The notes under the pieces: generated by a model
The model's database searches: none
The model's input: the letters and a program-made list of their open reading frames with translations, nothing else
Told to the model about the DNA's origin: nothing
Translations under genes and position numbers: made by a program
IMG/VR virus record: IMGVR_UViG_3300046002_005300
Coordinates: 1 to 28,739 of that record
DNA length: 28,739 bases
Direction: 5' to 3' (one strand)
Origin: a virus
In this document: positions 1 to 17,063 of the stretch, piece after piece
How the letters are laid out: every line of letters begins with the position of its first letter
How positions within the stretch are numbered: position 1 is the stretch's first letter

Positions 1-64
1 AAGTTACGTTTGGGGTTATGCATTCGGAGCCTCTTTTTTTGAGAAACCGGGTAGGGGTTCGGCA
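1..64. other. Left genome end, half of putative cos/intergenic region
   Basis: This is non-coding sequence between the HNH stop codon and the window edge. It carries TTACGTTTGGG at 4-14, which also occurs at 28722-28732. If the two window ends are joined, the copies lie in direct orientation exactly 21 bp apart, and the gap between the HNH and TerS genes becomes about 137 bp. HNH-terminase intergenic regions are where cos sites of this phage type are usually found. Assigning cos here is inference; the true cut position and overhang cannot be read from one strand. Confidence 0.4.
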
Positions 65-433
65 TTATTGGCCACGCTCCTGCCTGGTCTTGGCTTTGTG
101 GCATTCGTGACACAAGCTTTGCAGATTGTCCTGGTTGAATGCGTACTCTGCCCGGCCTTTGTGTGGGATGATATGATCAACGTCCGTGGCGCGTGCTCCG
201 CAGGCCCTGCAGAGCGGCTCCAAGGCCAGACGGTCCCTGCGGCATTTGGGCCAGCGTGGATCCTTGTACACCCACCGGTAGGCGTCGCCGCCCCCACGCT
301 CCCAGCGGGCAGCGTTGCTGGCTTTGCGCATTGCTTCGTACTCAAAGCCTTGTTCTTTGTGTGTGGCGCAGAAGCTCCGCGGTTCATCCACCATGTTGTA
401 GCACCCGGGAGCCAGGCAGATGAATCGCTTCAT
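65..433 (-). CDS. HNH endonuclease (terminase-associated)
   Basis: This 122-residue protein has an N-terminal Cys/His cluster (C6, C11, C22, H25) and a C-terminal HNH domain: CxxC at C75/C78, DH at D86-H87, an Asn-Leu near 103, and CxxCH at C108-C111-H112. HNH proteins next to terminases are known to assist cos cleavage during packaging in HK97-like and staphylococcal phages. Here the gene would sit directly upstream of TerS if the ends are joined. An upstream ATG at 502 is in frame but has no Shine-Dalgarno. The ATG at 433 has AAGG 7 nt upstream and overlaps the stop of a small gene (430-561) by ATGA, so 433 is preferred. Confidence 0.88.
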   Translation of the reverse strand: MKRFICLAPGCYNMVDEPRSFCATHKEQGFEYEAMRKASNAARWERGGGDAYRWVYKDPRWPKCRRDRLALEPLCRACGARATDVDHIIPHKGRAEYAFNQDNLQSLCHECHKAKTRQERGQ

Positions 434-561
434 GCTTTGGCCTTGCGCTTTCTTTCGGCTGGATCTTTCTTGTACGTCTCTGGAGATTTGTACTGAAACC
501 ATGGGGCTGTGATCACTAGATGCTTGGGCATGTCTGGGCTTGGGCAGGCGCGGACTTTCAT
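430..561 (-). CDS. Small basic hypothetical protein, 43 aa
   Basis: This small ORF starts MKVRACPSPD and ends in a Lys/Arg-rich tail (ERKRKAKA). Its ATG overlaps the TGA of the upstream gene (558-911), and its own TGA overlaps the ATG of the HNH gene at 433. Both overlaps are ATGA, the pattern used by nearly every gene pair in this operon, and it fills what would otherwise be a gap of about 125 bp. No domain is recognised. The basic tail next to an HNH/terminase gene is compatible with nucleic-acid binding, but that is inference. Confidence 0.6.
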   Translation of the reverse strand: MKVRACPSPDMPKHLVITAPWFQYKSPETYKKDPAERKRKAKA

Positions 562-911
562 TGTTCCCCCATGGTTATTGCGTTTGCCGTATCAAGGGCA
601 TCTTCAAGAACAGCGGTTCCGTAATCGGTCTTCCCTGCATCGATGTAGGCGCAGCATAGCCTGATGTTTGATATCACTTCATCATTCAGATAGCTGTAAG
701 GCATGTTAGCCATGTGACACCCGCTAATACCCTTATAGGTTCCATCCTCGTGGATCTTGCCACGGTATAAAACCATCCGCTCGGAATAAGCGTCCCATTC
801 TCCAGGAGCACGGTACATAGCCCGCCACATCCAGCCGTCCACCTCGACATCGAACAAGTGCCCGGACTTATCGCCCCTGCGCGGCGGTGCGAACAAATCA
901 AGCTGCATCAT
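558..911 (-). CDS. Hypothetical early-operon protein, 117 aa
   Basis: The protein begins MMQLDLFAPPRR, a start seen in many small phage early proteins, followed by an acidic and aromatic-rich body with several Cys and a C-terminal helical stretch. I recognise no domain. An in-frame start at 998 exists, but the ATG at 911 overlaps the TGA of the preceding gene (ATGA) and has a purine-rich AAGGGATGGG just upstream. A second ATG at 908 follows immediately. Its role is unknown; it lies between the replication genes and the HNH gene. Confidence 0.6.
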   Translation of the reverse strand: MMQLDLFAPPRRGDKSGHLFDVEVDGWMWRAMYRAPGEWDAYSERMVLYRGKIHEDGTYKGISGCHMANMPYSYLNDEVISNIRLCCAYIDAGKTDYGTAVLEDALDTANAITMGEQ

Positions 912-5322: not shown

Positions 5323-5579
5323 GCAAATCTCCTTACCAACGCCTCTTCTTCGTAGAGGTCCAGCACTTGCCGGTTACGGTCGATGGTCTGGCCAAAGGTC
5401 GGAAAGAACCGCAGCAGCCCGACCAGGTCAACCGGGAGGCCAAGCCGGGTGAACCTAGCCGTGAGTACCGTAGTCCAGTCATAAATTTCCGTTTTTTTGT
5501 CCTTGCGGGACATGTTCTGGTACTCGGTGTACATGTGGCCAAACGCTTCGATGGATACGCGGAATGGCGCTGGCTTCAT
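5319..5579 (-). CDS. Hypothetical early protein, 86 aa
   Basis: The protein is all-helical in appearance, with IYDWTTVLTARFTRLGLPVDLVGLLRFF in the middle and an acidic end (DLYEEEALVRRFA). No domain is recognised. It sits between the RHH protein and the KilAC protein, overlapping both by ATGA, so it is co-translated with the first lytic gene. In other phages this position often holds small regulators or anti-host factors, but nothing in the sequence decides this. Confidence 0.55.
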   Translation of the reverse strand: MKPAPFRVSIEAFGHMYTEYQNMSRKDKKTEIYDWTTVLTARFTRLGLPVDLVGLLRFFPTFGQTIDRNRQVLDLYEEEALVRRFA

Positions 5580-5776
5580 GGTTGGCGCTCCATGTATGCC
5601 TGGAGTTCTCTGGCCTGGACAGATTCGTGCAGCTTCAAGTATGCGTCCAATCCGGACTCAAGAAGCCGCAGGCTCATCTCGGCAATGCTGATCTCGTTCT
5701 TCGCAGCTATCAGCCGGATCTGTAACTTTACGTCCCGCGGGAGCTTAATTCCCATGTACTGGTGTTTCTGTTCCAT
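5576..5776 (-). CDS. Ribbon-helix-helix regulator, first gene of leftward operon
   Basis: The 66-residue protein has the RHH pattern: a short strand (YMGIKLPRD), helix one (VKLQIRLIAAKNEIS) and helix two (IAEMSLRLLESGLDAYLKL). RHH dimers bind palindromic operators and act as Arc- or Cop-like repressors. The frame is open to 5869, with ATGs at 5785, 5776 and 5755. A good sigma70 promoter (-35 at 5807-5812, -10 at 5785-5790) would start transcription near 5778, so the ATG at 5776 would be essentially leaderless. The 5785 start is the alternative. It faces another small regulator across a divergent promoter region. Confidence 0.7.
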   Translation of the reverse strand: MEQKHQYMGIKLPRDVKLQIRLIAAKNEISIAEMSLRLLESGLDAYLKLHESVQARELQAYMERQP

Positions 5777-5783
5777 AACTGCC

Positions 5784-5812
5784 ATTATTAGGTCACACTT
5801 GTGATGTGTCAA
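5784..5812 (-). promoter_or_regulatory. Leftward early promoter with embedded operator
   Basis: On the minus strand a perfect TTGACA (5807-5812) is followed after 16 bp by TAATAA (5785-5790), or after 17 bp by AATAAT. Between the hexamers lies a perfect inverted repeat TCACA-CT-TGTGA (5793-5804). A repressor bound there would block RNA polymerase, so this is the natural candidate for the lytic promoter and its operator. Confidence 0.65.
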
Positions 5813-5851: not shown

Positions 5852-5875
5852 TGATATAATTGAACACACAGGAGG
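5852..5875 (+). promoter_or_regulatory. Extended -10 promoter and RBS of plus-strand lysogeny gene
   Basis: On the plus strand TGATATAAT (TG at 5852-5853, TATAAT at 5855-5860) is a full extended -10 element. No good -35 is visible, as is usual for such promoters and for activator-dependent maintenance promoters. AGGAGG at 5870-5875 sits 6 nt before the ATG at 5882. The element starts about 40 bp from the leftward -35, so both promoters share one control region. Confidence 0.65.
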
Positions 5876-5881
5876 CGCGTT

Positions 5882-6124
5882 ATGCCTAAAAGGAAAGACG
5901 AATCAGATAAAGCTGTTATCGTTAGGGTAAGGATGAATGATGAAATCCGCATCCGATGCGATAAGGCAAGACTCGCAGGAGCCCACTCTCATGAGCCTGA
6001 ATCGTCATTTGTAGGGTACTTAGTTCGTATCGGGCTGGCAAAATACGAAATAACTATCTTGCCAGCAGAAAATGCGCAAGATGAAGGGATGCCTACCCAA
6101 GCCAGAAATTCAGCCGTCTCCTGA
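5882..6124 (+). CDS. Small RHH-like protein, candidate lysogeny repressor
   Basis: The 80-residue protein has a basic N-terminus, a possible strand (AVIVRVRMND) followed by EIRIRCDKARLAGAH, then a second helix (SSFVGYLVRIGLAKYE). This arrangement resembles ribbon-helix-helix DNA-binding proteins, though the loop is longer than usual. It is the first plus-strand gene of the switch, preceded by an extended -10 promoter and a strong RBS, the place where a CI-like repressor is normally found. No CI-type HTH or LexA-like peptidase is present anywhere in the window, so this is the best repressor candidate. The assignment rests on context and a weak motif. Confidence 0.5.
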   Translation: MPKRKDESDKAVIVRVRMNDEIRIRCDKARLAGAHSHEPESSFVGYLVRIGLAKYEITILPAENAQDEGMPTQARNSAVS

Positions 6125-6230
6125 GCCCGCTCCAGCCGTGGCGCGGATGCTCTGTCATCAATGCTCCTGGGCGGGTGCGGCTGTGAGCGCTGTCAAAATA
6201 GATGGTAAAATCCTGCGATTCGATTTATGA
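6081..6230 (+). CDS. Overlapping small ORF with CxxC motif, 49 aa
   Basis: This ORF runs in a different frame and overlaps the last 44 nt of the preceding gene. It encodes MKGCLPKPE, a proline-rich stretch (QPSPEPAPAVA), then MLCHQCSWAG with a CxxC and a strand-like IDGKILRFDL. It fills most of the otherwise unexplained gap 6125-6260. The upstream ribosome-binding site is weak. It might be reached by coupling or by a frameshift from the upstream gene. The composition looks protein-like, but it is short and unrecognised. Confidence 0.35.
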   Translation: MKGCLPKPEIQPSPEPAPAVARMLCHQCSWAGAAVSAVKIDGKILRFDL

Positions 6231-6260
6231 TAATTCAATATTTGGATGGAGGTTTTACAC

Positions 6261-6581
6261 ATGGATCTTGTTTTTGATATTATTTATGCAGTTATCGGCT
6301 TGGTTGTTTTGATTTCGTTTTTTTTGATTACAACAAGGCTGGGTAAAATTGCAAAAACCACAGCGCTTTTATGCAAATATGAACAGGCAAAGCTTATTGA
6401 TGCGGGGCTATATGATCCAACAAGCGGATGTTTTACTAAAATTGAATTTGATGAATTCGGAACGGTTACTGTCATTGATTCGTGGGTTTGCAATAAATGC
6501 CATGCTTTCAACAAGGGCAAGCACAAATATTGTCAAGCATGTGCGGCAGCTAGACCTGTTAAAGAAAAAGGGGCAGTATGA
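6261..6581 (+). CDS. One-TM protein with C-terminal zinc ribbon
   Basis: The 106-residue protein starts with a clear transmembrane helix (about 5-25). A basic juxtamembrane segment (TRLGKIAKT), a helix around 35-50 and an acidic strand follow, then a compact zinc ribbon with C77, C80, C91 and C94. A K/R-rich tract just after the TM segment suggests an N-out, ribbon-in-cytoplasm topology. GGAGG 8 nt before the ATG at 6261 decides the start over 6246. It lies in the plus-strand segment between repressor and integrase, a usual place for lysogenic-conversion genes. Its function is unknown; superinfection exclusion or a host membrane effect is speculation. Confidence 0.65.
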   Translation: MDLVFDIIYAVIGLVVLISFFLITTRLGKIAKTTALLCKYEQAKLIDAGLYDPTSGCFTKIEFDEFGTVTVIDSWVCNKCHAFNKGKHKYCQACAAARPVKEKGAV

Positions 6582-6796
6582 TTGACTTGATTGGCTGGGT
6601 AATAAGCTTAATAATAATTATTAGCTTTTTTGCATTGATCGGCTATGTGCGGAAAATTTTGAGATACATCCAAGCGTTGTATTACTTCGAAAAGACTCGC
6701 ATGATATCCCAGAAGCTGCTTGATCCAGAATCAGATAAAATCATCGAATGGATGTTTGATGACTATGACCATCCTGTCAGGCGCAACAAGCAGTGA
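6578..6796 (+). CDS. One-TM protein, paralogue of preceding gene without zinc ribbon
   Basis: The 72-residue protein has a strong N-terminal TM helix (about 4-24), a basic stretch (YVRKILRY), then ALYYFEKTRMISQKLLDPES, which aligns with ALLCKYEQAKLIDAGLYDPTS of the preceding gene. It ends in an acidic segment and a short basic tail where the neighbour has its zinc ribbon. The ATG overlaps the upstream TGA (ATGA), so the two are co-translated and probably form a pair in the membrane. The paralogy is seen in the sequence; the complex is inference. Confidence 0.6.
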   Translation: MIDLIGWVISLIIIISFFALIGYVRKILRYIQALYYFEKTRMISQKLLDPESDKIIEWMFDDYDHPVRRNKQ

Positions 6797-6942
6797 GAAT
6801 CGATCTGGATGCATACGGCAGATTTTCCGATGCTCCTTCGCAGCTCCAGATACCAGTCAAGGATGATGAACCTACGACTGACCAGCCTCCAGAAGAATTC
6901 TCGATGCCAGATCAGCCGCCGCCGCCCGGCTCTCCTGGGTAA
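6793..6942 (+). CDS. Possible small proline-rich ORF, 49 aa, antiparallel to integrase end
   Basis: A GTG start overlaps the TGA of the preceding one-TM gene (GTGA), and the frame runs 49 codons before TAA. The peptide begins VRIDLDAYGRF (Met when initiated) and becomes acidic and proline-rich (DEPTTDQPPEE, QPPPPGSPG). The last 71 nt lie opposite the integrase 3' end. The start overlap is suggestive of coupling, but composition alone cannot separate it from chance. Confidence 0.3.
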   Translation: MRIDLDAYGRFSDAPSQLQIPVKDDEPTTDQPPEEFSMPDQPPPPGSPG

Positions 6943-8110
6943 TGTGGCTGTACTGTTCGGTCATCGCGGCCGAGCGATGGCCGGTCAGTTGCCGTAGCGC
7001 GTGATCCGGGAGCCGGTCACGCATCTGGCTGTTGTAGAAGTGCCGCCAGCTGTGAAAGGTTATGCCGCTGTCTCCCGGGATCCCGATAGCCAACAGCGCG
7101 TTTTTAAGCCCCTTTTGCAGGGTGGCCTTGTCAACGGGATTGGCCCGGCGGCGGTGGCTGCAGAATACAAAGCCGGAACCCCACGGGTTACCTTCTGCCA
7201 CTTTGCGCAGGACGGCCACAACATGGGCAGGAACAGGGATTGTCCGGAGGCTGCGCCATTTGGGATCCTTGCCGCCTTCCAGGTCCGACCAGCTTTGCAG
7301 TACCTCGATTTCGGTATCATGGATGGCATCCACTGTAAGCGCGCGGACCTCGCCGAGCCGCATGCCGGTGGTTGCTGCCAGCAGGCTGGCGGCATGTGCC
7401 CGCGTATCTGCCCAGGGGGCTGACAGCACGGCCCGAGCCTCTGCCAACGTGAGCACGCCTCGGGCTGTGGCATTTTCGGCCAGTTTCGGGGCTCTGCCGG
7501 ATGGGTTATCTTTAAGCATCCCGAGTCTGGCAGCTTCTGCCAGTGCAACGGTTACAGACTGCCGTATGGCATTGACGGTACGATGGGACAGCAGCTTGCC
7601 GGTATCGCGTTGCGCGCCGCTCCGGTTGCCGGCCTTGGCGTTCTGTGATCGCACATCCATGATGAGCGCCTCGATGTGATGCGCTTGCACATCGCGCAAA
7701 GCCAGATCCTGGTGATGCATCCGTATCCATGGAGTTACGTAATTGGTAATGTTGCGGCGGTTGTTTGCAAGGTATTCCAAACTGATCGACCGTCCACGGG
7801 CCCGCAGGCTGCTGGCATACTGGCCATCTGGATCCCAGAACGACCGCAGATAGTCGGACAGCGTTACCGTAGTACCGCGGACTGGTGCAGGGCTGTGATC
7901 CTGTAGCCAGGCATCCACGATGCGCCTGGCTCCTGCTTTGGTGATGGGGCTGGTTCCGGCCGGCAGTGCCGAGCGCACGGAATCTACCAGGGATCCAACA
8001 GACCGCCGGCACACGTATTTCCCGGCTGCAGCATCCCAAAACCCGACATTATAGACTTTGCCTGCCCTGGCGCTTTCAGGGCGGCGGTAGAGGATGTATG
8101 GATCTCGCAT
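6872..8110 (-). CDS. int: Tyrosine recombinase / phage integrase
   Basis: The 412-residue protein has an N-terminal arm-binding-like region with Arg/Lys-rich stretches, a core-binding SAM-like domain (about 80-200) and a catalytic domain with R251 (TGMRLGE), H353-x-x-R356 (FHSWRH), H378 (LTGH) and Y387 (EQYSH). The spacing is normal and all key residues are present. It would recombine attP, directly upstream at 8111-8400, with a host tRNA-Gly gene. The region just before the start has a palindrome (GGAGT-CT-ACTCC, 8116-8127) that overlaps the weak ribosome-binding site and could be regulatory. Transcription is leftward, convergent with the lysogeny genes. Confidence 0.95.
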   Translation of the reverse strand: MRDPYILYRRPESARAGKVYNVGFWDAAAGKYVCRRSVGSLVDSVRSALPAGTSPITKAGARRIVDAWLQDHSPAPVRGTTVTLSDYLRSFWDPDGQYASSLRARGRSISLEYLANNRRNITNYVTPWIRMHHQDLALRDVQAHHIEALIMDVRSQNAKAGNRSGAQRDTGKLLSHRTVNAIRQSVTVALAEAARLGMLKDNPSGRAPKLAENATARGVLTLAEARAVLSAPWADTRAHAASLLAATTGMRLGEVRALTVDAIHDTEIEVLQSWSDLEGGKDPKWRSLRTIPVPAHVVAVLRKVAEGNPWGSGFVFCSHRRRANPVDKATLQKGLKNALLAIGIPGDSGITFHSWRHFYNSQMRDRLPDHALRQLTGHRSAAMTEQYSHITQESRAAAADLASRILLEAGQS

Positions 8111-8210: not shown

Positions 8211-8256
8211 AGCGTCCGATGGGAATCGAACCCACATCTCCAGCTTGGAAGGCTGA
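8211..8256 (-). tRNA. 3' part of tRNA-Gly(UCC), attachment core (partial)
   Basis: Minus-strand sequence folds as an anticodon arm (stem TCAGC/GCTGG, loop CTTCCAA, anticodon TCC at 8247-8249), a 5-nt variable region, a T arm (GTGGG-TTCGATT-CCCAT) and a 7-nt 3' acceptor strand (CGGACGC) with discriminator T. The D arm and 5' acceptor are missing, so it is not a complete tRNA gene. It is the piece that would restore the host tRNA after integration. Identity with the host should end just beyond the anticodon stem, near 8258. Confidence 0.8.
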
Positions 8257-8400
8257 CATAATTCTATGCTATACAATGAATTGTGTGTATACAGTTTATG
8301 CTGTGTACCTGTTGTATAGCGTTACATGCCGGGCGTTTGTTTTGATAAAAAACGCTACACAATTTGCTCCCAGGCATGTAGAGGCTGGATCGACAATTGA

Positions 8401-8466
8401 TGCCCCTCCCGGGAGTTGAACCCGGTTGCCCCGGCTCCTGTCTGGATGGCATTGCCTGGCAGGGGC
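8401..8466 (-). other. tRNA-like sequence (T arm and acceptor), incomplete
   Basis: On the minus strand GCCCCT (8461-8466) can pair with AGGGGC (8402-8407). A T arm CCGGG-TTCAACT-CCCGG lies in between, matching the conserved GGTTCRANYCC T-loop consensus. The total length is about 65 nt plus a discriminator, and by eye no normal D or anticodon arm forms. It begins 6 nt after the stop of the last late gene. It could be a decayed tRNA, a relic of an older attachment site, or a structured 3' end of the late transcript. Confidence 0.4.
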
Positions 8467-8472
8467 TGGGAT

Positions 8473-8970
8473 CTAGAATACCATTGACAGCGCAGCCACG
8501 ATCCACCCAATGGCCGCAACCGCTCCGGCAATGCTGGCAATGGCCATCCAGCCGTCGCGGGCTTTTTCTGCTTCCGATCCTTTGCGGATCGCATCGGAGA
8601 GGATCAGGCTGGCCTGCTCGCGCTCAATCATGCGGGCCGCCTCGGATGACTCGTAGAGCCTGGTCGATGCCGTCAATGAGGATCGTAATGCGGCGGTTTC
8701 GGTCTGCAGCTCCTGCAGCGAGCTTTGCAGCCTCTGCCAGTCCTGATCCGACTCGGTCAATTCGCTCTTGAGACTGCTCCAGAGCGACTCGAAGCTCTCC
8801 CATGGATCGGTCGGCGGCAGCTCTGACTGCTGCAAGCTCTCGGTCTGCAGCGGCAATGGCTGCGGCTCCGGCGGCCCGCTCATCGGCTGCGCCTGCAAGG
8901 TAGCCTGCACCAATAAGAGCAACACCAATAATAATAGCAGCGATGATCCTGATTGCGGTCTGCATGTCAT
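8473..8970 (-). CDS. Spanin-like lysis protein, long frame (signal + C-terminal TM)
   Basis: The 165-residue frame has a signal-like hydrophobic N-terminus (about 10-23, with a possible cleavage after LQA), a Pro/Gln-rich linker, an extended coiled coil of Leu, Ser, Gln and Glu (about 60-130) and a C-terminal TM helix (about 141-163, after EKARDGW). This topology resembles a unimolecular spanin, but no lipobox Cys follows the signal, so outer-membrane attachment is not evident. GAGG lies 5 nt before the ATG. The last 150 bp are not shared with the overlapping frame, and they encode a convincing membrane segment. Confidence 0.6.
   Translation of the reverse strand: MTCRPQSGSSLLLLLVLLLLVQATLQAQPMSGPPEPQPLPLQTESLQQSELPPTDPWESFESLWSSLKSELTESDQDWQRLQSSLQELQTETAALRSSLTASTRLYESSEAARMIEREQASLILSDAIRKGSEAEKARDGWMAIASIAGAVAAIGWIVAALSMVF
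8624..8965 (-). CDS. Spanin-like lysis protein, nested frame (N-terminal TM, coiled coil)
   Basis: A second frame starts 5 nt downstream of the first and lies wholly within it. The 113 residues have an N-terminal TM helix (about 6-26), then an Ala/Glu/Arg-rich coiled coil with ADRELAAVRAAADRS and LAAGAADRNRRI. That is the layout of an Rz-type inner-membrane spanin. AGG lies 6 nt before the ATG. Rz and Rz1 genes of other phages are also nested out of frame, so both frames being coding is plausible. The alternative is that the Ala-rich frame is a by-product of the other. Confidence 0.55.
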   Translation of the reverse strand: MQTAIRIIAAIIIGVALIGAGYLAGAADERAAGAAAIAAADRELAAVRAAADRSMGELRVALEQSQERIDRVGSGLAEAAKLAAGAADRNRRITILIDGIDQALRVIRGGPHD

Positions 8971-8972
8971 AC

Positions 8973-10151
8973 CTACCTCGTGAGAGTCCGGTTTATTTCC
9001 ATCCGCAAATAGTCAAGATGGATTATGTCTGCGGCCGCATCGACGCTTGTTTCACCGGCTATTACCCCAAAACCTGTTTCGCGCCCTGCAGCTGTCGGTA
9101 TGTTTGCGTTGACCGTATCGGTCCAGAGAACTGTCTCTGCATCGTTGACCAGGCTGAACGTTACCAGTGTTCCTGCCGCGTTGACTTCGATGATTCCGGT
9201 GTACCATGTGTTGAGTGCCATGGTATACGAGCTTGCGGTAGTCCTTGGCCCTGCGTTGTTTTTTGCGCGTCCGACAATAGTTGATATTGTGCCATTGTTC
9301 ACAATTTCCAGCCATACGCCGTCAGTCGGTGCGGTCTGTATCGCCGTCGAGTCCTGCCATCCGAATCGCGCCGATGCAGTAATTCTTATGTCACGCGTCT
9401 GAAAGGTGAACAATGCTTTTTCACCTCCTGCAATCAGGAATGCGGTGATTTCACTCATGAAACGATAGTTTGCGTTGGCGGTAGCGCTATCCCTGAGATA
9501 TATGACTCCGGGATGACTAGGGGTTGCTGTCACTGCCGCCGCAACGCCCGACCCTGTGGCCGCTCCCAACAAACCGGGGCACGCCGAGTTTGCGTTTGCC
9601 GAGTAAAAATCAGACTCAATGATAAAAGCTGATTTGCGGGTCAGGTTGTCTGCTTTGCCATCAAGTGCGGTTTTAAGATCGGTCTGATTAGCCAGTGTCC
9701 CGGTGATTGTCCCCCATGACGCGGCTGGGCCTGCGGGGCCTACATCGCCTTGTGGACCTTCCGGTCCAGTCGGTCCATCCGGGCCAGCTGGGCCCTGGAT
9801 ACCTTGGGTGCCTTGCGCCCCCGCTTCACCTTGGGGGCCTTGCAGACCGGTGTCACCTTTTGGGCCTGCTGATCCTTGCGATCCAGTCTCACCCTGCGGG
9901 CCTGGTACGGTACTGGCTGGGCCCTGGGCTCCCTGCGGGCCGATATCGCCCTGTGGTCCGGCTGGTCCGGCTGGTCCGGCTGGGCCTGCGTTTCCCTGAT
10001 CGCCTTTCGGCCCGGTAGCGCCCCGCGGGCCGGTGTCAGGGATGACATGGACCTCTATGGTAGCGGGCGTGCTGACTGTGACTGCCGCCGATGTCTCACC
10101 GGTCGCGCTGACGGCTATTTCATCGGGCGGTTGGACAACGACAGTAATCAT
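8973..10151 (-). CDS. Collagen-like fibre protein with C-terminal beta domain
   Basis: The 392-residue protein has a beta-rich N-terminus (about 1-40), a collagen-like Gly-X-Y region (about 40-145, many GPAGP and GPQG triplets) that should form a triple helix, a short linker ([15 protein letters not shown]) and a C-terminal domain of about 200 residues with a jelly-roll or lectin-like pattern. It is likely a trimeric receptor-binding or decoration fibre. The ATG at 10151 overlaps the upstream TGA by ATGA; the in-frame start at 10220 is unlikely. Its place after the holin and before the spanin frames separates it from the tail genes, suggesting an inserted host-range or adhesion gene. Confidence 0.8.
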
Positions 10152-10441
10152 GTCGGCCTCGCCATGCCCCTGAGGATCGTGCGCGGAATGTCGCCCGGCT
10201 CGACCCAGGAGAAGTACCACGATGCCGCGGTGAATACTGCTGTCTGTTCGGCGCTCAGGGTTAGCTGGATTTGTCCTGTTGCCAGGTCTACCGGCAGGAT
10301 CTCGAACTCGACAGAGCCAGCCTTGGATTCAAAGGTGTACCCGTCCAAATCTGTGCCAAAGTCCAGCTGAAAGGTGAATTCGTCACCCTGCACAAACGTC
10401 AAATCCAAAACGCCCGGCAGTTGGGATATGTTTGCCATCAT
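10148..10441 (-). CDS. Fibre-associated conserved phage protein, 97 aa
   Basis: The protein begins [28 protein letters not shown], a pattern found in small phage proteins preceding fibres or BppU-like domains. It is beta-rich and contains [23 protein letters not shown] followed by [10 protein letters not shown]. It is probably an attachment or baseplate-side domain for the collagen-like fibre encoded next, with which it is coupled by ATGA. The frame is open to 10621, but the ATG at 10441 overlaps the holin stop and has GGGGGAG upstream. The virion location is inferred. Confidence 0.6.
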
Positions 10442-10635
10442 GCTCCCCCTCTTGGTTTGGTCAGCGAATCCGCCGCGATGTACCCGCCGGCAACGCCAAC
10501 CAGTAGCGCCAAAGCAGCGCCCATGCCGCCCGGGATGTCTCCCTGGGCTATCCCTGATGCGATGATTGCCGATGCTGCCAGCATGGACCAGAGGCATACC
10601 AGCCAGCGGCGGCTCTGCCACTTGTTATAGCTCAT
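10438..10635 (-). CDS. Holin-like two-TM protein, 65 aa
   Basis: The protein starts MSYNKWQSRRW and has two hydrophobic helices (about 11-29 and 37-56) joined by a short loop (QGDIPGG), with a basic C-terminus (LTKPRGGA). Size, topology and location directly after the M15 endolysin gene fit a class II holin that permeabilises the inner membrane at lysis. The start overlaps the end of the endolysin gene by 11 nt. No experimentally named family is recognised, so the call rests on features and position. Confidence 0.7.
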   Translation of the reverse strand: MSYNKWQSRRWLVCLWSMLAASAIIASGIAQGDIPGGMGAALALLVGVAGGYIAADSLTKPRGGA

Positions 10636-11068
10636 AGTGCGGCTTGTCCGTTTTTGGCGCTGCCCATCGTCCGCCCCAGGTCATCCCGTGGCTCTCGCCG
10701 ATCTGGCCCATGCGCTCCCAGATTTCCTCCGGTGCCAGCCACCAGACCTGACCCTTGCGCATCGGCGCGATGTCGATGGCCTCGCCGCGCAAGTGCTTGC
10801 TGTCCAGTGTCCATGTTATCTGTCGGGCTGCTTCGGCCTCGCTGATCTTCCACAGCCCGGCCGCGCAGTACAGGGCTATCGCATCTGGTGGGGCCATCCT
10901 GCCGCGCGAATAGTACGCCATCTGAGTTGCCAGATCGCGGTGGGTTTCGATAACGACTGGTTTTACTCCTGCGGCCATGAGGTCCGGATCCGTGCGCATC
11001 TCTTTCAGCGCATCCTCGGCTCTGGATGCCAGCGATGGGATCAGCAGGTCCAGTTCGGTGTGCAACAT
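10625..11068 (-). CDS. Endolysin, M15 family peptidase (L-Ala-D-Glu type)
   Basis: The 147-residue enzyme has the zinc-binding signature of VanY/M15 peptidases: SKHLRGEAIDI (H92, D99) and KPHYEL near the C-terminus (H144), with WGGRW in between. It would cleave peptidoglycan stem peptides during lysis. There is no signal peptide, so release depends on the holin. The start at 11068 shares one base with the upstream TAA (TAATG) and has GGGAGG 5 nt before; the longer open frame to 11371 is read-through of the neighbouring gene. The order of endolysin, holin and spanin frames is a standard lysis cassette interrupted by two fibre genes. Confidence 0.9.
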   Translation of the reverse strand: MLHTELDLLIPSLASRAEDALKEMRTDPDLMAAGVKPVVIETHRDLATQMAYYSRGRMAPPDAIALYCAAGLWKISEAEAARQITWTLDSKHLRGEAIDIAPMRKGQVWWLAPEEIWERMGQIGESHGMTWGGRWAAPKTDKPHYEL

Positions 11069-11385
11069 TACAGCCTCCCCGTTAGGAATTCTTCGAAATT
11101 TGAAAACGCAATCTCTACCCCCTGGTGTGCGCTGGTAACATTCCCGTTGGACTTCCCGTCGCGGATAGCCTCCAACGTGGCTTTGTGCGCGGCAAGGCAT
11201 GGCCTCTGGAGTTTGGCCAGCGCGCCAATTGCCAGGGTCTGGTCCTGGTCTGTTTGTATCAACCTGTCGATACTTTTGCGCATGCCGGCCAGTGCGTTGC
11301 CAACCTGGAAAACGCCGCGGACAGCCATGCCAGCCAGAACGGTAATTGCAGCGCTGATAAAGATTGTCCACGGGTCAATAGTCAT
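11068..11385 (-). CDS. One-TM phage protein before endolysin, 105 aa
   Basis: A short polar start is followed by a TM helix (about 8-26), then a helical cytoplasmic or periplasmic part containing RKSIDRLIQTDQDQTLAIGAL. This layout occurs in many small phage proteins next to holins. It could be a second holin, an antiholin or a membrane-anchored lysis regulator. GGGGAGG precedes the ATG closely. The stop overlaps the endolysin start by one base, so the two are coupled. Confidence 0.55.
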   Translation of the reverse strand: MTIDPWTIFISAAITVLAGMAVRGVFQVGNALAGMRKSIDRLIQTDQDQTLAIGALAKLQRPCLAAHKATLEAIRDGKSNGNVTSAHQGVEIAFSNFEEFLTGRL

Positions 11386-12131: not shown

Positions 12132-15100
12132 CTATGAGGTCCGCTTCCACACTTGGATTGATACGTTTGGCGGCCTTGTTTCTGAAGTATCGGTTGTCAA
12201 CTTATATGATCCATCTGCAATCGGGGTTGATGTGTACAACCTGTTTGTATTGTCGCTGCCTCTGTCCTGAACATTTATGCTAGTTGCTCCTGTTTCCGAT
12301 CCGTACTGCCCAGGTATCACCGTTGCATAGTATGGCCCGTCCTTGTGCTTGTGCGTTTGCAACGCCGAGCCCTGTGCAATAACCAATGTCCCACTTGGTG
12401 TTCCAACAAATGCTGATGAAACTGTAACTTGATTTGGTATATTTATTATTGATATTTGGCGCCACTGAGTCCCAAATTTTATCCAATCGCCAATTGATGC
12501 ATAGTGATCAGTCGTAAATATTATTGATGTTGTTGTTGCGGACGAGACTACTTTTGTCGAGTGGGCAAATGACTTTGCGCTACCAGTACTTTGTGCGCCA
12601 CGGAAAAACATGCTATCCCAGACCTGGTATTCCCATGTTCCGGTAAAAATATCATACGGTGGCGCCTCGCCTGGCAACTGGAAATAGATCATGCCGATCG
12701 CGGCAGGCGCTTTCCCAGAGACTGTAATAGATCCATCAGTCCCATCTATTTTTATTACATTACTTCCATTATATGATCCACCAATAATTCTTACACGAGC
12801 GGTACTTTCTGTTCCATTGCTTCCCAACGCAAGTACAACATTTGAAGCCTGAAGATTACTAGTACCAAACCATATACCGTTAGTAAATCCTAAGTCTTCA
12901 TTTATTCTTAAATATGTATCAGATGTTTTTATAAAGTTTTTTCCCATAAACCCAACAGCGCCACCAGGCGATATTGTCATTACATTAACAGAACTATTCG
13001 GATTATAAACAAGATTACCATCGGTATTCTGATATAACTCTGCACCATTACCACCATTATAAGACCCGGAAAACTTTATTAATGGTGCTCCATCGCTTTT
13101 GATTCTTAACTGATAGTAACTAGCAGGCTTATAGATATCCAATGCATATTCAGGACTAGTGGTTCCAATACCAACATTCCTTCCTTTGGTAATAGTCATG
13201 GCAACTGCACTACTTGCATCATCCCTATTGCGATTATAAAATGATAATGCACCTTCTGGAGAAATTGCAGTAGTTGTAAAACCTATCGCCCATGCATCTG
13301 TAGGTGTGGATCCATAGCCAGTCAAACCTCTAGTGATCATAATCCCTGACCATTCATTATCACCACTATCTATTCGTATACCTTCACTCCATGCAGAAGA
13401 TGTTGATCTTAAATATAGATTATTTGATATTGTTAAAATACCAGCTGGATTTATTCTTGCGACTTCACCGCCTGCTCCATTTCCAAAAATAGTACCCTGT
13501 CCAGAATAATAATTAAGATATGAATTTCCAGATGAATCAACATAAAATCCGCGAATATTACTTAATGCTACTTCTTTTGTAATTCCTCCAGGTTTTGCAG
13601 AGTTAATGACACTTACCACTTGATTAGTTGGATATGTTCCATATGCAATATAGACTCTTACATTATACCCTTCCCAATATCCCATTGATGGAAACCAGAA
13701 GCACAACTTTCCACTTTCATTGAAAGCAACCAAACCACCTAGATTAAGACTTCCTCCAGTTGTCCCTCCATGGTTAATAATTGTTCCGCCATAAATGTAT
13801 CCCTGATATTTGAAATTAAGTGGTGATATTCTACCGTATGCATTTCCCTTTATTTCCAATACCCATGGAGCGCCATCTACAACACTATAATCAATTGCAG
13901 TCCTTATCAATGTCCCTGCAGGAAAATCTCTACCAGAATGATAGTAATCATTAAATGCTCCATAAAATGTCGTTGCATACATATCTACAGATGCGCGTAT
14001 GCTTCCTGTAACACGCACTTCTTTATTAAATAATATTGCAGTGGTAATATTTGTCGTAAAGCTACAATACGTTGTATCGGAAAACTGAACAGATAGATAG
14101 CTTGTATCATCGCCATAAAAATAAAACCCTCTTGTTGCTGGAGTAATTTTTTTATGAATATCATTTGTATAAAAATGTAATCCTTGTGATCCAATATCAC
14201 TGCCAAGCCGTATGATCTCAGACCCACCTGAATGCACGCTGAAACTTGCATCATGCGCGGTCATATCTCCGTTGAGGATTTCCATCGGTCCGTCTACGTG
14301 GACGGTATCGCCCGGTGCTACCCAGAAACCATAATCCTGGGTGGTATATGCTACCGTAGAGACTTCCCAATATGTTGTATTTGTTGGAAGTGTTCCTGCC
14401 GTACCGCCAGTCAACTTACACCGATATACAATTCCATTATAAAGAACGCGATCATTTAGGATATATGCTTTTGTAACATCAAACGCAGGACCGTTTTTGA
14501 GCAGCTCGTTAAGATACCCCATAGCGACTTTTTCTGATGATGTCGAAAAGATAGACACCCTATTTTTTTCTTTGTTCAGCTCTATTCTGTTTGTTGATTC
14601 ATCAAGCGCACTTGATAGTTTCTTATCGTATATCTTCCACCCGCCAATTGCGCCACCGGAAGAATTGATGATACCATCGATCATCAAGGTCGGTGTTGTT
14701 GCAGTGGGGTCCCAGTCCAGTTTTGACCCGAGGGAGAATTTTCCATGGATGTTTACATAAAATGGCGTATCATCACTGTTCCATGTGCCAACGCCAATGT
14801 AAAGGCTGTCGCTTGCGAGACTGACGGCCCCAACCTTTCCCGAGATTGCTTTGATACTTCCGGCGTTGGAAACGCTGAACGGCGCGTCACCAATTGCAGT
14901 TGCACCAGTCCAGATACCAGACCCAGCTTTCATCTGGACCCTGGTAGCACCGGTCCCAGCATAAAGACCATCAGTTCCGTCAACGGTAAACCCGGCAGCG
15001 GTTACCACGCCCGCCGTTGTCCATGCCAGCGTTGACGATGCGCCGAGATATCCTGATCCATCGGATAGAATCTGTGCGCGGACCGTGCCAGCCTGGTAAG

Positions 15101-17063
15101 CTTTTAGGCCGGTTGAATCCAGCTCTGCCCTGGTGTCGGTTGAACCGGTGCGGATTTTTCCTGTACCAAGGGCTGTGAGGTATCCGGTTTCAATAGTCCA
15201 GCCATGGGTTGTTCCTCCGAACGTACCGGCTGATGCGTGGATCGTACCGCGGATCGTTGCACTGGAAAACTCGGCCGCGCCGCTCCCCTCGATCTGCCAG
15301 CCGGCCGAGCCTGCCGCGTAGTTTGACGATTTGACAGTGTTGCCTGCCGAGATGGTGCCGGTAATCAGGCTGTCACCGTCCAGGGTGAGCTGCCCTTTGA
15401 TCAAGAGCTTGGTGCCGTTCCAGTTCACGTAGTTGTCAGCATCGCCGGAGAATGCAAACAGACCGTCGCTGTCAATATAGGATTTCCAGGCTCCGGTTTT
15501 GCGCAGACCGATATAGGATTGTGTCAGATACAAGCCGTCACCGGTCGGGGTGATATCGCTTGCGAAATTGTTGGAATCGATGGGCTGGCGGACCGTGCCG
15601 TCTGTGTTGAGGCCGAGGTCGATTATTGCGGCGCTGGTTTCGGATTGTTCGACTGTGTACCGGCTGCTGTTGACTGGTCGGCTGTTGCCTCCTACATCAA
15701 TTGACCTCGCTATGTAGTTTTTTACTTCTTCCAGATCGTAGGTGATTACCCCGCCAGGGCTGGCTTCGGATTCTACCATACCGATGACCCGGCAGGATAC
15801 GGACAGGCCGGCGTGTATGGCGTCGGTGACCTGGACGTACTGGCCAAGTGTCAGCACGGTGGCGCTCCGGGCTTTTATTTTAAGGTCTGAATAGGCGTAG
15901 TACTGGGCAAGCAGTCTTGCTAAAGTCTGTGCGGATGTATCGTCAAAAATGTGCTCGGCTTGGTGTTCAAGCAGCAGCTTGCCGCCGGTGGTGGATGACC
16001 GCGCGGTGTTTTTGGAAACTACAACATAGGCGTTGCCGGTGATCCGCAGCTTGGTGATTTTCTTTTGCGCTGCTGCAGTGTTGCGGTAGGCAAACGAGGC
16101 TTTGCGGTAATAGTTGGTAAGCGCCAGGGACAGGGTGATGCCGGTTTCGAATGTGGCATCGAGTGCGGCCGATGTGGCGACCCACACATCAAAGCCGTCG
16201 GGAGAATTCCAGGTGGCAAACACTTCGCCAAGCTTGGAGGTGAGCGGATAATAATCCTTGCCTTCGGCGTTGCCGGTGGCTTCCAGGACAATGTTGGCTT
16301 CGTTGGTTTCGTCCCGGCCGCTGGTATCCTGGTACAGGACTATGCCGGTTTTTGATTCCACCAGGTTGTAGTTGATACGGATATCGTCGTATTTTACCGG
16401 GCTTTTGGATATCTCGAGCTCGCCACGGATGTTGGCGGACCCGGCTGCAGTTGTCAGAGTGGCGGTGGTGGTGATGGGTCCGGAGTTGACTGCAGGGACA
16501 ATCTGCAGCTGGCCAGATTCGTTGAACAGGTGAACATGGCTGCATTCAAACAGGATCGCTTCGAGCAGCTGGCCCCAGGTCTTTTTGTCGTCGGGCAATA
16601 CCACTTCATAGGGTACCGTCTGCGATATGGTCGGCAGGCCGGATGCCAGAGTTACTCCGGCAGCGGCAGCGATGACATGCACAAGGCTGGTACTTGTGCT
16701 GGATGGGTTGCAGATCGCGTAGCCAGCCCATGCGACCGGATCGGCAATGGTCGTGCCGAGCAGCTGCAGCGTCGGGTCTTCTGCGATAATCTCCATGTAC
16801 TTGATGCCATCGCGAATGACAGCCCGGTAATTAGGCGACAGGTAACCGGCAAAATAGGCCGACCCGTTTTTGGTGACGGTAATGCCGACCGTGTCGTTTG
16901 CGATGAGGGTGGCAAACAGTGTCTGGTCAAATGTGCAGCGGAACGCCAGCCGGTTGACGTTTGGCCGCAGCTCGGTGAACAACCGCCGTTCCCTGGTGAT
17001 GGACATGACATCGACACGGGCGGTTATGTCGCCCCCGGGGTTTAAAACGAATGACCAGCTCAT
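12132..17063 (-). CDS. Tail hub / central fibre protein, 1643 aa
   Basis: Residues 1 to about 465 resemble a tail-hub or baseplate gp27-like domain (start MSWSFVLNPGG). Residues about 480-820 are repeated beta-rich fibre segments (LYLTQSYIGLRKTG, GGWKIYDKKL). A chitin-binding-like motif (FDVTKAYILNDRVLYNG) lies near 855-885. The distal half contains NVGIGTTSPEYALDI (about 1290), typical of fibres ahead of a chaperone, and the C-terminus has a collar-like end (THKHKD... TRPPNVSIQVW). No S74 peptidase signature is seen. Codon and base use change sharply: about 12.7-14.6 kb is AT-rich. The start overlaps the tape-measure stop by ATGA. It probably binds the host receptor. Confidence 0.82.
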   Translation of the reverse strand: MSWSFVLNPGGDITARVDVMSITRERRLFTELRPNVNRLAFRCTFDQTLFATLIANDTVGITVTKNGSAYFAGYLSPNYRAVIRDGIKYMEIIAEDPTLQLLGTTIADPVAWAGYAICNPSSTSTSLVHVIAAAAGVTLASGLPTISQTVPYEVVLPDDKKTWGQLLEAILFECSHVHLFNESGQLQIVPAVNSGPITTTATLTTAAGSANIRGELEISKSPVKYDDIRINYNLVESKTGIVLYQDTSGRDETNEANIVLEATGNAEGKDYYPLTSKLGEVFATWNSPDGFDVWVATSAALDATFETGITLSLALTNYYRKASFAYRNTAAAQKKITKLRITGNAYVVVSKNTARSSTTGGKLLLEHQAEHIFDDTSAQTLARLLAQYYAYSDLKIKARSATVLTLGQYVQVTDAIHAGLSVSCRVIGMVESEASPGGVITYDLEEVKNYIARSIDVGGNSRPVNSSRYTVEQSETSAAIIDLGLNTDGTVRQPIDSNNFASDITPTGDGLYLTQSYIGLRKTGAWKSYIDSDGLFAFSGDADNYVNWNGTKLLIKGQLTLDGDSLITGTISAGNTVKSSNYAAGSAGWQIEGSGAAEFSSATIRGTIHASAGTFGGTTHGWTIETGYLTALGTGKIRTGSTDTRAELDSTGLKAYQAGTVRAQILSDGSGYLGASSTLAWTTAGVVTAAGFTVDGTDGLYAGTGATRVQMKAGSGIWTGATAIGDAPFSVSNAGSIKAISGKVGAVSLASDSLYIGVGTWNSDDTPFYVNIHGKFSLGSKLDWDPTATTPTLMIDGIINSSGGAIGGWKIYDKKLSSALDESTNRIELNKEKNRVSIFSTSSEKVAMGYLNELLKNGPAFDVTKAYILNDRVLYNGIVYRCKLTGGTAGTLPTNTTYWEVSTVAYTTQDYGFWVAPGDTVHVDGPMEILNGDMTAHDASFSVHSGGSEIIRLGSDIGSQGLHFYTNDIHKKITPATRGFYFYGDDTSYLSVQFSDTTYCSFTTNITTAILFNKEVRVTGSIRASVDMYATTFYGAFNDYYHSGRDFPAGTLIRTAIDYSVVDGAPWVLEIKGNAYGRISPLNFKYQGYIYGGTIINHGGTTGGSLNLGGLVAFNESGKLCFWFPSMGYWEGYNVRVYIAYGTYPTNQVVSVINSAKPGGITKEVALSNIRGFYVDSSGNSYLNYYSGQGTIFGNGAGGEVARINPAGILTISNNLYLRSTSSAWSEGIRIDSGDNEWSGIMITRGLTGYGSTPTDAWAIGFTTTAISPEGALSFYNRNRDDASSAVAMTITKGRNVGIGTTSPEYALDIYKPASYYQLRIKSDGAPLIKFSGSYNGGNGAELYQNTDGNLVYNPNSSVNVMTISPGGAVGFMGKNFIKTSDTYLRINEDLGFTNGIWFGTSNLQASNVVLALGSNGTESTARVRIIGGSYNGSNVIKIDGTDGSITVSGKAPAAIGMIYFQLPGEAPPYDIFTGTWEYQVWDSMFFRGAQSTGSAKSFAHSTKVVSSATTTSIIFTTDHYASIGDWIKFGTQWRQISIINIPNQVTVSSAFVGTPSGTLVIAQGSALQTHKHKDGPYYATVIPGQYGSETGATSINVQDRGSDNTNRLYTSTPIADGSYKLTTDTSETRPPNVSIQVWKRTS

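Follow-up and report, generated by a model that had tools for sequence, protein, structure and literature searches.

Several two-gene exclusion systems have already been found at the sites where phages carry lysogeny-side passengers. Lambda RexAB, Sbash gp30/gp31 and CarolAnn gp43/gp44 are two-gene prophage exclusion systems with a membrane partner; the exclusion genes of lambda and CarolAnn are expressed with the repressor, and all three systems occupy a lysogeny-expressed site (PMC6426596, PMC6426606). SieA of P22 is an inner-membrane exclusion protein encoded by a single gene, with three spans and 162-164 aa (PMC10883804).

Here, we analysed the DNA of a virus record over its whole length of 28,739 bases (hereafter, the window) and focused on two small adjacent genes, A and B, which together measure 536 bases. 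A first-pass annotation knew of no described system with such a pair, and we also found none that matches it.

Genome context of the pair

The window is most likely a nearly complete genome of a temperate siphovirus-like phage. One end carries an HNH-like gene and the opposite end the terminase, portal and capsid genes, with the lysogeny region at approximately 4-8.3 kb. The ORF layout and the family matches place nearly all genes of the window on the minus strand. The sole rightward block (5882-6796) contains a regulator-like gene, A and B, with the pair at its end (Table 1).

Table 1. Features of the lysogeny region around genes A and B, in window positions
Feature	Position	Strand	Description	Evidence
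Divergent small regulator, weakly Arc-like	5576-5803	-	Opens the leftward early block	phrog_228/582 (Arc-like repressor), E = 0.015-0.017
Candidate -10 (TATAAT)	5855-5860	+	Would serve the rightward (lysogenic) block; lacks a good -35	Read from sequence
Small regulator-like gene	5882-6124	+	80 aa; first in the rightward block; AGGAGG before start	Ribbon-helix-helix-like by eye only
Gene A	6261-6581	+	106 aa; single membrane span near the N-terminus (~residues 5-24), with a basic helix and a RanBP2-type finger	ORF, hydropathy, PF00641
Gene B	6578-6796	+	72 aa; paralogue of A lacking the finger; single membrane span; coupled to A by ATGA	
Tyrosine integrase	6872-8110	-	Convergent with the pair	PF00589, E = 8e-17; phrog_1, E = 4e-43
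Partial tRNA-Gly(TCC)	8219-8274	-	Lacks the 5' acceptor strand	Rfam tRNA, 31.8 bits (cut-off 29), model positions 10-63

A and B lie on the strand opposite to the early and late genes, between a divergent regulator pair and the integrase with its attachment site. On the early side, the Arc-like gene has a promoter-like site (5812-5784), and beyond it lie a KilAC antirepressor-like gene and then a DUF3102 gene. The gene that opens the rightward block is likely, but not proven, to be the repressor; its product had no significant family match in Pfam or PHROGs. ARAGORN found no full tRNA at the tRNA-Gly remnant, and a tRNA part that keeps the TCC anticodon loop and lacks the 5' acceptor strand is the form expected of an attP, so this element is likely to be the attP within the 3' end of a tRNA-Gly gene. 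These surroundings are the right position for a lysogenic-conversion slot. Thus, of the earlier placement of the pair between repressor and integrase on the lysogenic strand, the slot beside the integrase and attP stands, whereas the integrase itself is on the minus strand and the supposed repressor has no significant family match to name it.

Other ORFs in this part of the window deserve mention. A short plus-strand ORF (6072-6230) with a CxxC (MLCHQCSWAG) runs in another frame over the end of the regulator-like gene, and it may be a small gene of its own, a regulator tail in a shifted frame, or a chance ORF. Between attP and the tail-fibre gene, two minus-strand ORFs (8473-8970 and 8624-8965; 165 and 113 aa) overlap in different frames, both with a hydrophobic N-terminus; they are possibly a nested spanin-like pair, or a real gene and its shadow. 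The tail-fibre-like ORF (8973-10220, minus strand) contains a long collagen-like Gly-X-Y repeat.

For the host, a terminase-based scan of genomes gave no match. The DUF3102 gene of the window matched Leptospira phage LE1 (E = 6e-5), a faint hint of a link to spirochaetes. Two near-identical contigs (L008 and L009) span 17.4-28.7 kb, short of the pair.

Features of A and B

The ORFs and the hydropathy profiles confirmed the coordinates, the ATGA coupling and the single membrane span of each protein, as first annotated. The two genes overlap by the ATGA at 6578-6581; GGAGG lies 8 bases 5' of the start of A, and AGGGG lies close 5' of the start of B. Each product has a single strongly hydrophobic stretch (best 19-residue mean of 2.67 in A and 2.69 in B) with basic residues after it, which by the positive-inside rule predicts an N-out/C-in topology for both.

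By sequence comparison, A and B are homologous, beyond chance similarity. BLASTP aligned them without gaps over 63 residues with 32% identity (E = 3e-4), and none of 2,000 shuffles reached this score when the membrane and soluble parts were shuffled separately, which guards against an effect of membrane composition. For the soluble part by itself, none of 5,000 shuffles scored as high, so the homology extends past the span. The identities per codon position were 0.43, 0.56 and 0.35, with the second position kept and the third near random; they point to an ancient duplication kept under constraint at the protein level and support that both frames are coding. Residues L37, Y40-E41, L50 and D52-P53 of A align with L, F-E, L and D-P of B. 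The common pattern proposed earlier (ALxxxYE..K.....L.DP) is not exact in B: relative to this alignment its 'AL' is shifted by one residue, and B has R at the position of its K.

The zinc ribbon had been assigned to the first protein only, and its cysteines are there exactly as described (C77, C80, C91 and C94). The finger of A, DSWVCNKCHAFNKGKHKYCQACAAARP, matches the RanBP2-type pattern W-x-C-x2-C-x3-N-x6-C-x2-C (W75, C77, C80, N84, C91, C94), within the pattern W-x-C-x2-4-C-x3-N-x6-C-x2-C used for testing. Against PF00641, A scored 24.8 bits (E = 1.3e-5) and 26.8 bits in a second measurement, both below the curated cut-off of 27, and the nearest solved structures to the finger were those of Nup153 (E = 9e-4). 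With its four cysteines, A would be expected to bind zinc. Ubiquitin-binding NZF fingers have Thr-Phe after the second cysteine, and RNA-binding RanBP2-type fingers have a Trp together with Arg-Arg. A has H81-A82 in place of Thr-Phe and lacks the Trp and Arg-Arg, so neither ubiquitin nor RNA can be assumed as its ligand.

At the structural level, both models begin with one long N-terminal helix. In the model of A (mean pLDDT 62), a helix at 2-47 is followed by a hairpin and a tail of poor model quality, and the model of B (mean pLDDT 78) has helices at 2-47 and 50-61. The long helix predicted in both proteins is compatible with their pairing. Structure searches with the two models gave no significant match.

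Composition and relatives

The pair differs in composition from the rest of the phage. The G+C content is 37.7% in A and 38.4% in B versus 54% in the window, and this suggests acquisition. The regulator-like gene preceding A has 46%, the integrase 61% and the other measured phage genes 51-62%. In A, GC3 is 0.30 versus 0.59-0.76 in most genes of the phage. The pair thus has what is looked for in a moron, a foreign composition outside the phage core. Elsewhere in the window, comparable AT-richness is confined to one long ORF (12132-17063, minus strand; 1643 aa), which had no PHROG match. Near 12.7-13.9 kb its G+C content falls to ~36%, the lowest of the window, so part of this ORF may be exchanged.

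Peptide-seeded scans of viral contigs with A, B and their alignment retrieved no relative, and neither did a scan of bacterial genomes with A. Since these scans require exact short peptides and miss distant relatives, the absence of matches is not proof. The sole tblastn match in phages and plasmids covered 29 residues of the finger, in Listeria phages (E = 0.8). Neither A nor B matched a PADLOC model at E <= 1, and NCBIfam and PHROGs gave nothing informative. The match of phrog_35529 to B (E = 0.004) was discarded as a family assignment: at a loose threshold this model also matches two archaeal controls, and we treated it as an effect of membrane-helix composition.

One related phage, L014, shares the KilAC and DUF3102 genes at ~50% identity. 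In the same place, a small regulator in divergent orientation, with an RHH match at E = 0.005-0.008, is followed by an orphan protein unrelated to A and B, and this one example fits an exchangeable cargo slot. The regulators of L014 and those of the window did not align. The orphan (1-573, minus strand; at least 191 aa) is truncated by the contig edge, and neither family nor structure searches gave it a match. Repeating the scan with an alignment of DUF3102 added no related phages. L015 is another phage whose DUF3102 gene is related; the gap that separates its HTH regulator from its serine integrase encodes a protein of 137 aa (6029-6442, plus strand), which has a WYL-like match (PADLOC E = 1e-7, phrog_6785 E = 5e-7).

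Scanning viral contigs for the finger pattern retrieved at least 77 distinct fingers in ORFs of up to 250 aa, and in at least seven of them a membrane-like stretch precedes the finger; at least one of the latter (L021) may come from read-through into unrelated sequence. Small phage proteins of L121, L059, L045, L019 and L133 combine a span and a RanBP-like finger in the domain order of A. Among the matches listed, that of L121 (103 aa) is the nearest to A in build, with an alignment confined to the finger; the L045 protein also aligns with A in the finger only, and the L059 protein in a weak span match. We looked for a B-like gene in 12 finger-bearing and related records and found none. Thus, anchored RanBP-like fingers recur in phages, and this is the only record in which we saw a tandem paralogue without the finger. 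In L045 (region 8303-10314) and L059 (region 12756-13633), membrane-plus-finger genes adjoin lipoprotein-like genes, and in L045 a secreted barrel-like gene as well; the L045 cassette is encoded on the other strand from the late genes beside it. Both regions look like passenger cassettes.

Discussion

The best-supported part of our interpretation is that A and B are acquired, translationally coupled one-span membrane paralogues on the lysogeny side of the phage. Going further, we favour an acquired lysogenic-conversion pair whose membrane complex most likely interferes with infection by other phages, and we give this reading as a whole a probability of about 0.35. A and B would be expressed in the lysogen from the rightward block starting at 5882 and inserted into the inner membrane, each crossing it once in an N-out/C-in orientation. 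They would then probably form a complex through the common span and the long helix continuing from it. In such a complex, A would present its zinc finger in the cytoplasm with B as the finger-less partner, and the assembly would most likely interfere at the membrane with incoming phages.

The exclusion function itself is a guess from the position of the pair, by analogy to RexAB, Sbash 30/31, CarolAnn 43/44 and SieA. Beyond that position, we found no support for the superinfection-exclusion or defence role proposed in the first-pass annotation. Points counted against it are the lack of a PADLOC match, the lack of any homologue in the scans above, the three or four spans of the known exclusion membrane proteins, the unproven identity of the repressor and the failure of the L014 regulators to align with their window counterparts. 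Nor did we find support beyond position for the membrane sensor or effector complex suggested there. The structure models of A and B carry no functional signal. A more specific version, in which the paralogous one-span proteins form a two-component exclusion system, the cytoplasmic finger of A senses infection and B is effector or brake, is decidedly unlikely.

We ranked the alternatives from a non-defence passenger through a decaying duplicate, a switch regulator and an addiction pair to a lysis pair. The evidence for acquisition and position also fits passenger genes that change the physiology or envelope of the host by lysogenic conversion and have no action on other phages. In L045 and L059, the neighbours of the membrane-plus-finger genes look by eye like host-surface passengers, namely lipoproteins and a secreted barrel protein. 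However, no homologue was found in any cellular context and nothing points to a host pathway, and we hold this explanation as possible but doubtful.

That B is A minus the finger is simply explained by tandem duplication followed by loss, and B could be a decaying duplicate with A alone functional. The frame of B is nevertheless intact, ATGA-coupled and preceded by AGGGG, and its soluble part is still homologous to A despite near-random third codon positions; we consider decay unlikely.

The pair also lies directly downstream of the regulator-like gene, on the same strand and with no terminator-like site between them, as it would if A and B were a membrane-bound regulator of the lysogeny switch that senses membrane or host state and acts on its neighbour. 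Against this stand the 137 bases that separate them, the different G+C content (0.46 vs 0.38) and the other gene found there in L014, and we regard such a role as distinctly unlikely. Being small and coupled, with one of them very short and hydrophobic, A and B also resemble a toxin-antitoxin-like or addiction pair at the membrane; partners of that kind are rarely paralogues and A and B have no family match, so this is improbable. Finally, two related small membrane proteins could be a holin-antiholin or similar lysis pair. We rejected this very improbable reading because the lysis cassette is elsewhere: the endolysin (10625-11371) and a two-span ORF resembling a holin (10438-10635) are encoded on the other strand, while the pair is lysogeny-side and A has a finger.

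Comparison with known systems

The finger pattern of A is common to the RanBP2-type fingers of Nup153, Mdm2/Mdm4 and ZRANB2, which are eukaryotic. Should the two proteins prove active in the lysogen, they would add an unfamiliar build, one-span paralogues of which one is zinc-fingered, to the passengers on the lysogeny side of phages.

Like SieA, A and B are predicted to be small prophage-encoded inner-membrane proteins made in the lysogen; SieA, however, is single, has three spans and has no finger, whereas A and B are a pair of one-span proteins. Like RexAB and the Sbash and CarolAnn systems, the pair consists of two adjacent genes with a membrane protein at a comparable site, its lysogenic expression being predicted only. 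In those systems the membrane protein has four spans and its partner is a DUF4747 protein, whereas A and B are paralogues with one span each and neither has a DUF4747 match in Pfam. With both the four-span protein and the DUF4747 partner absent, we rejected A and B as a RexAB-like member and place them beside these systems by gene arrangement and site.
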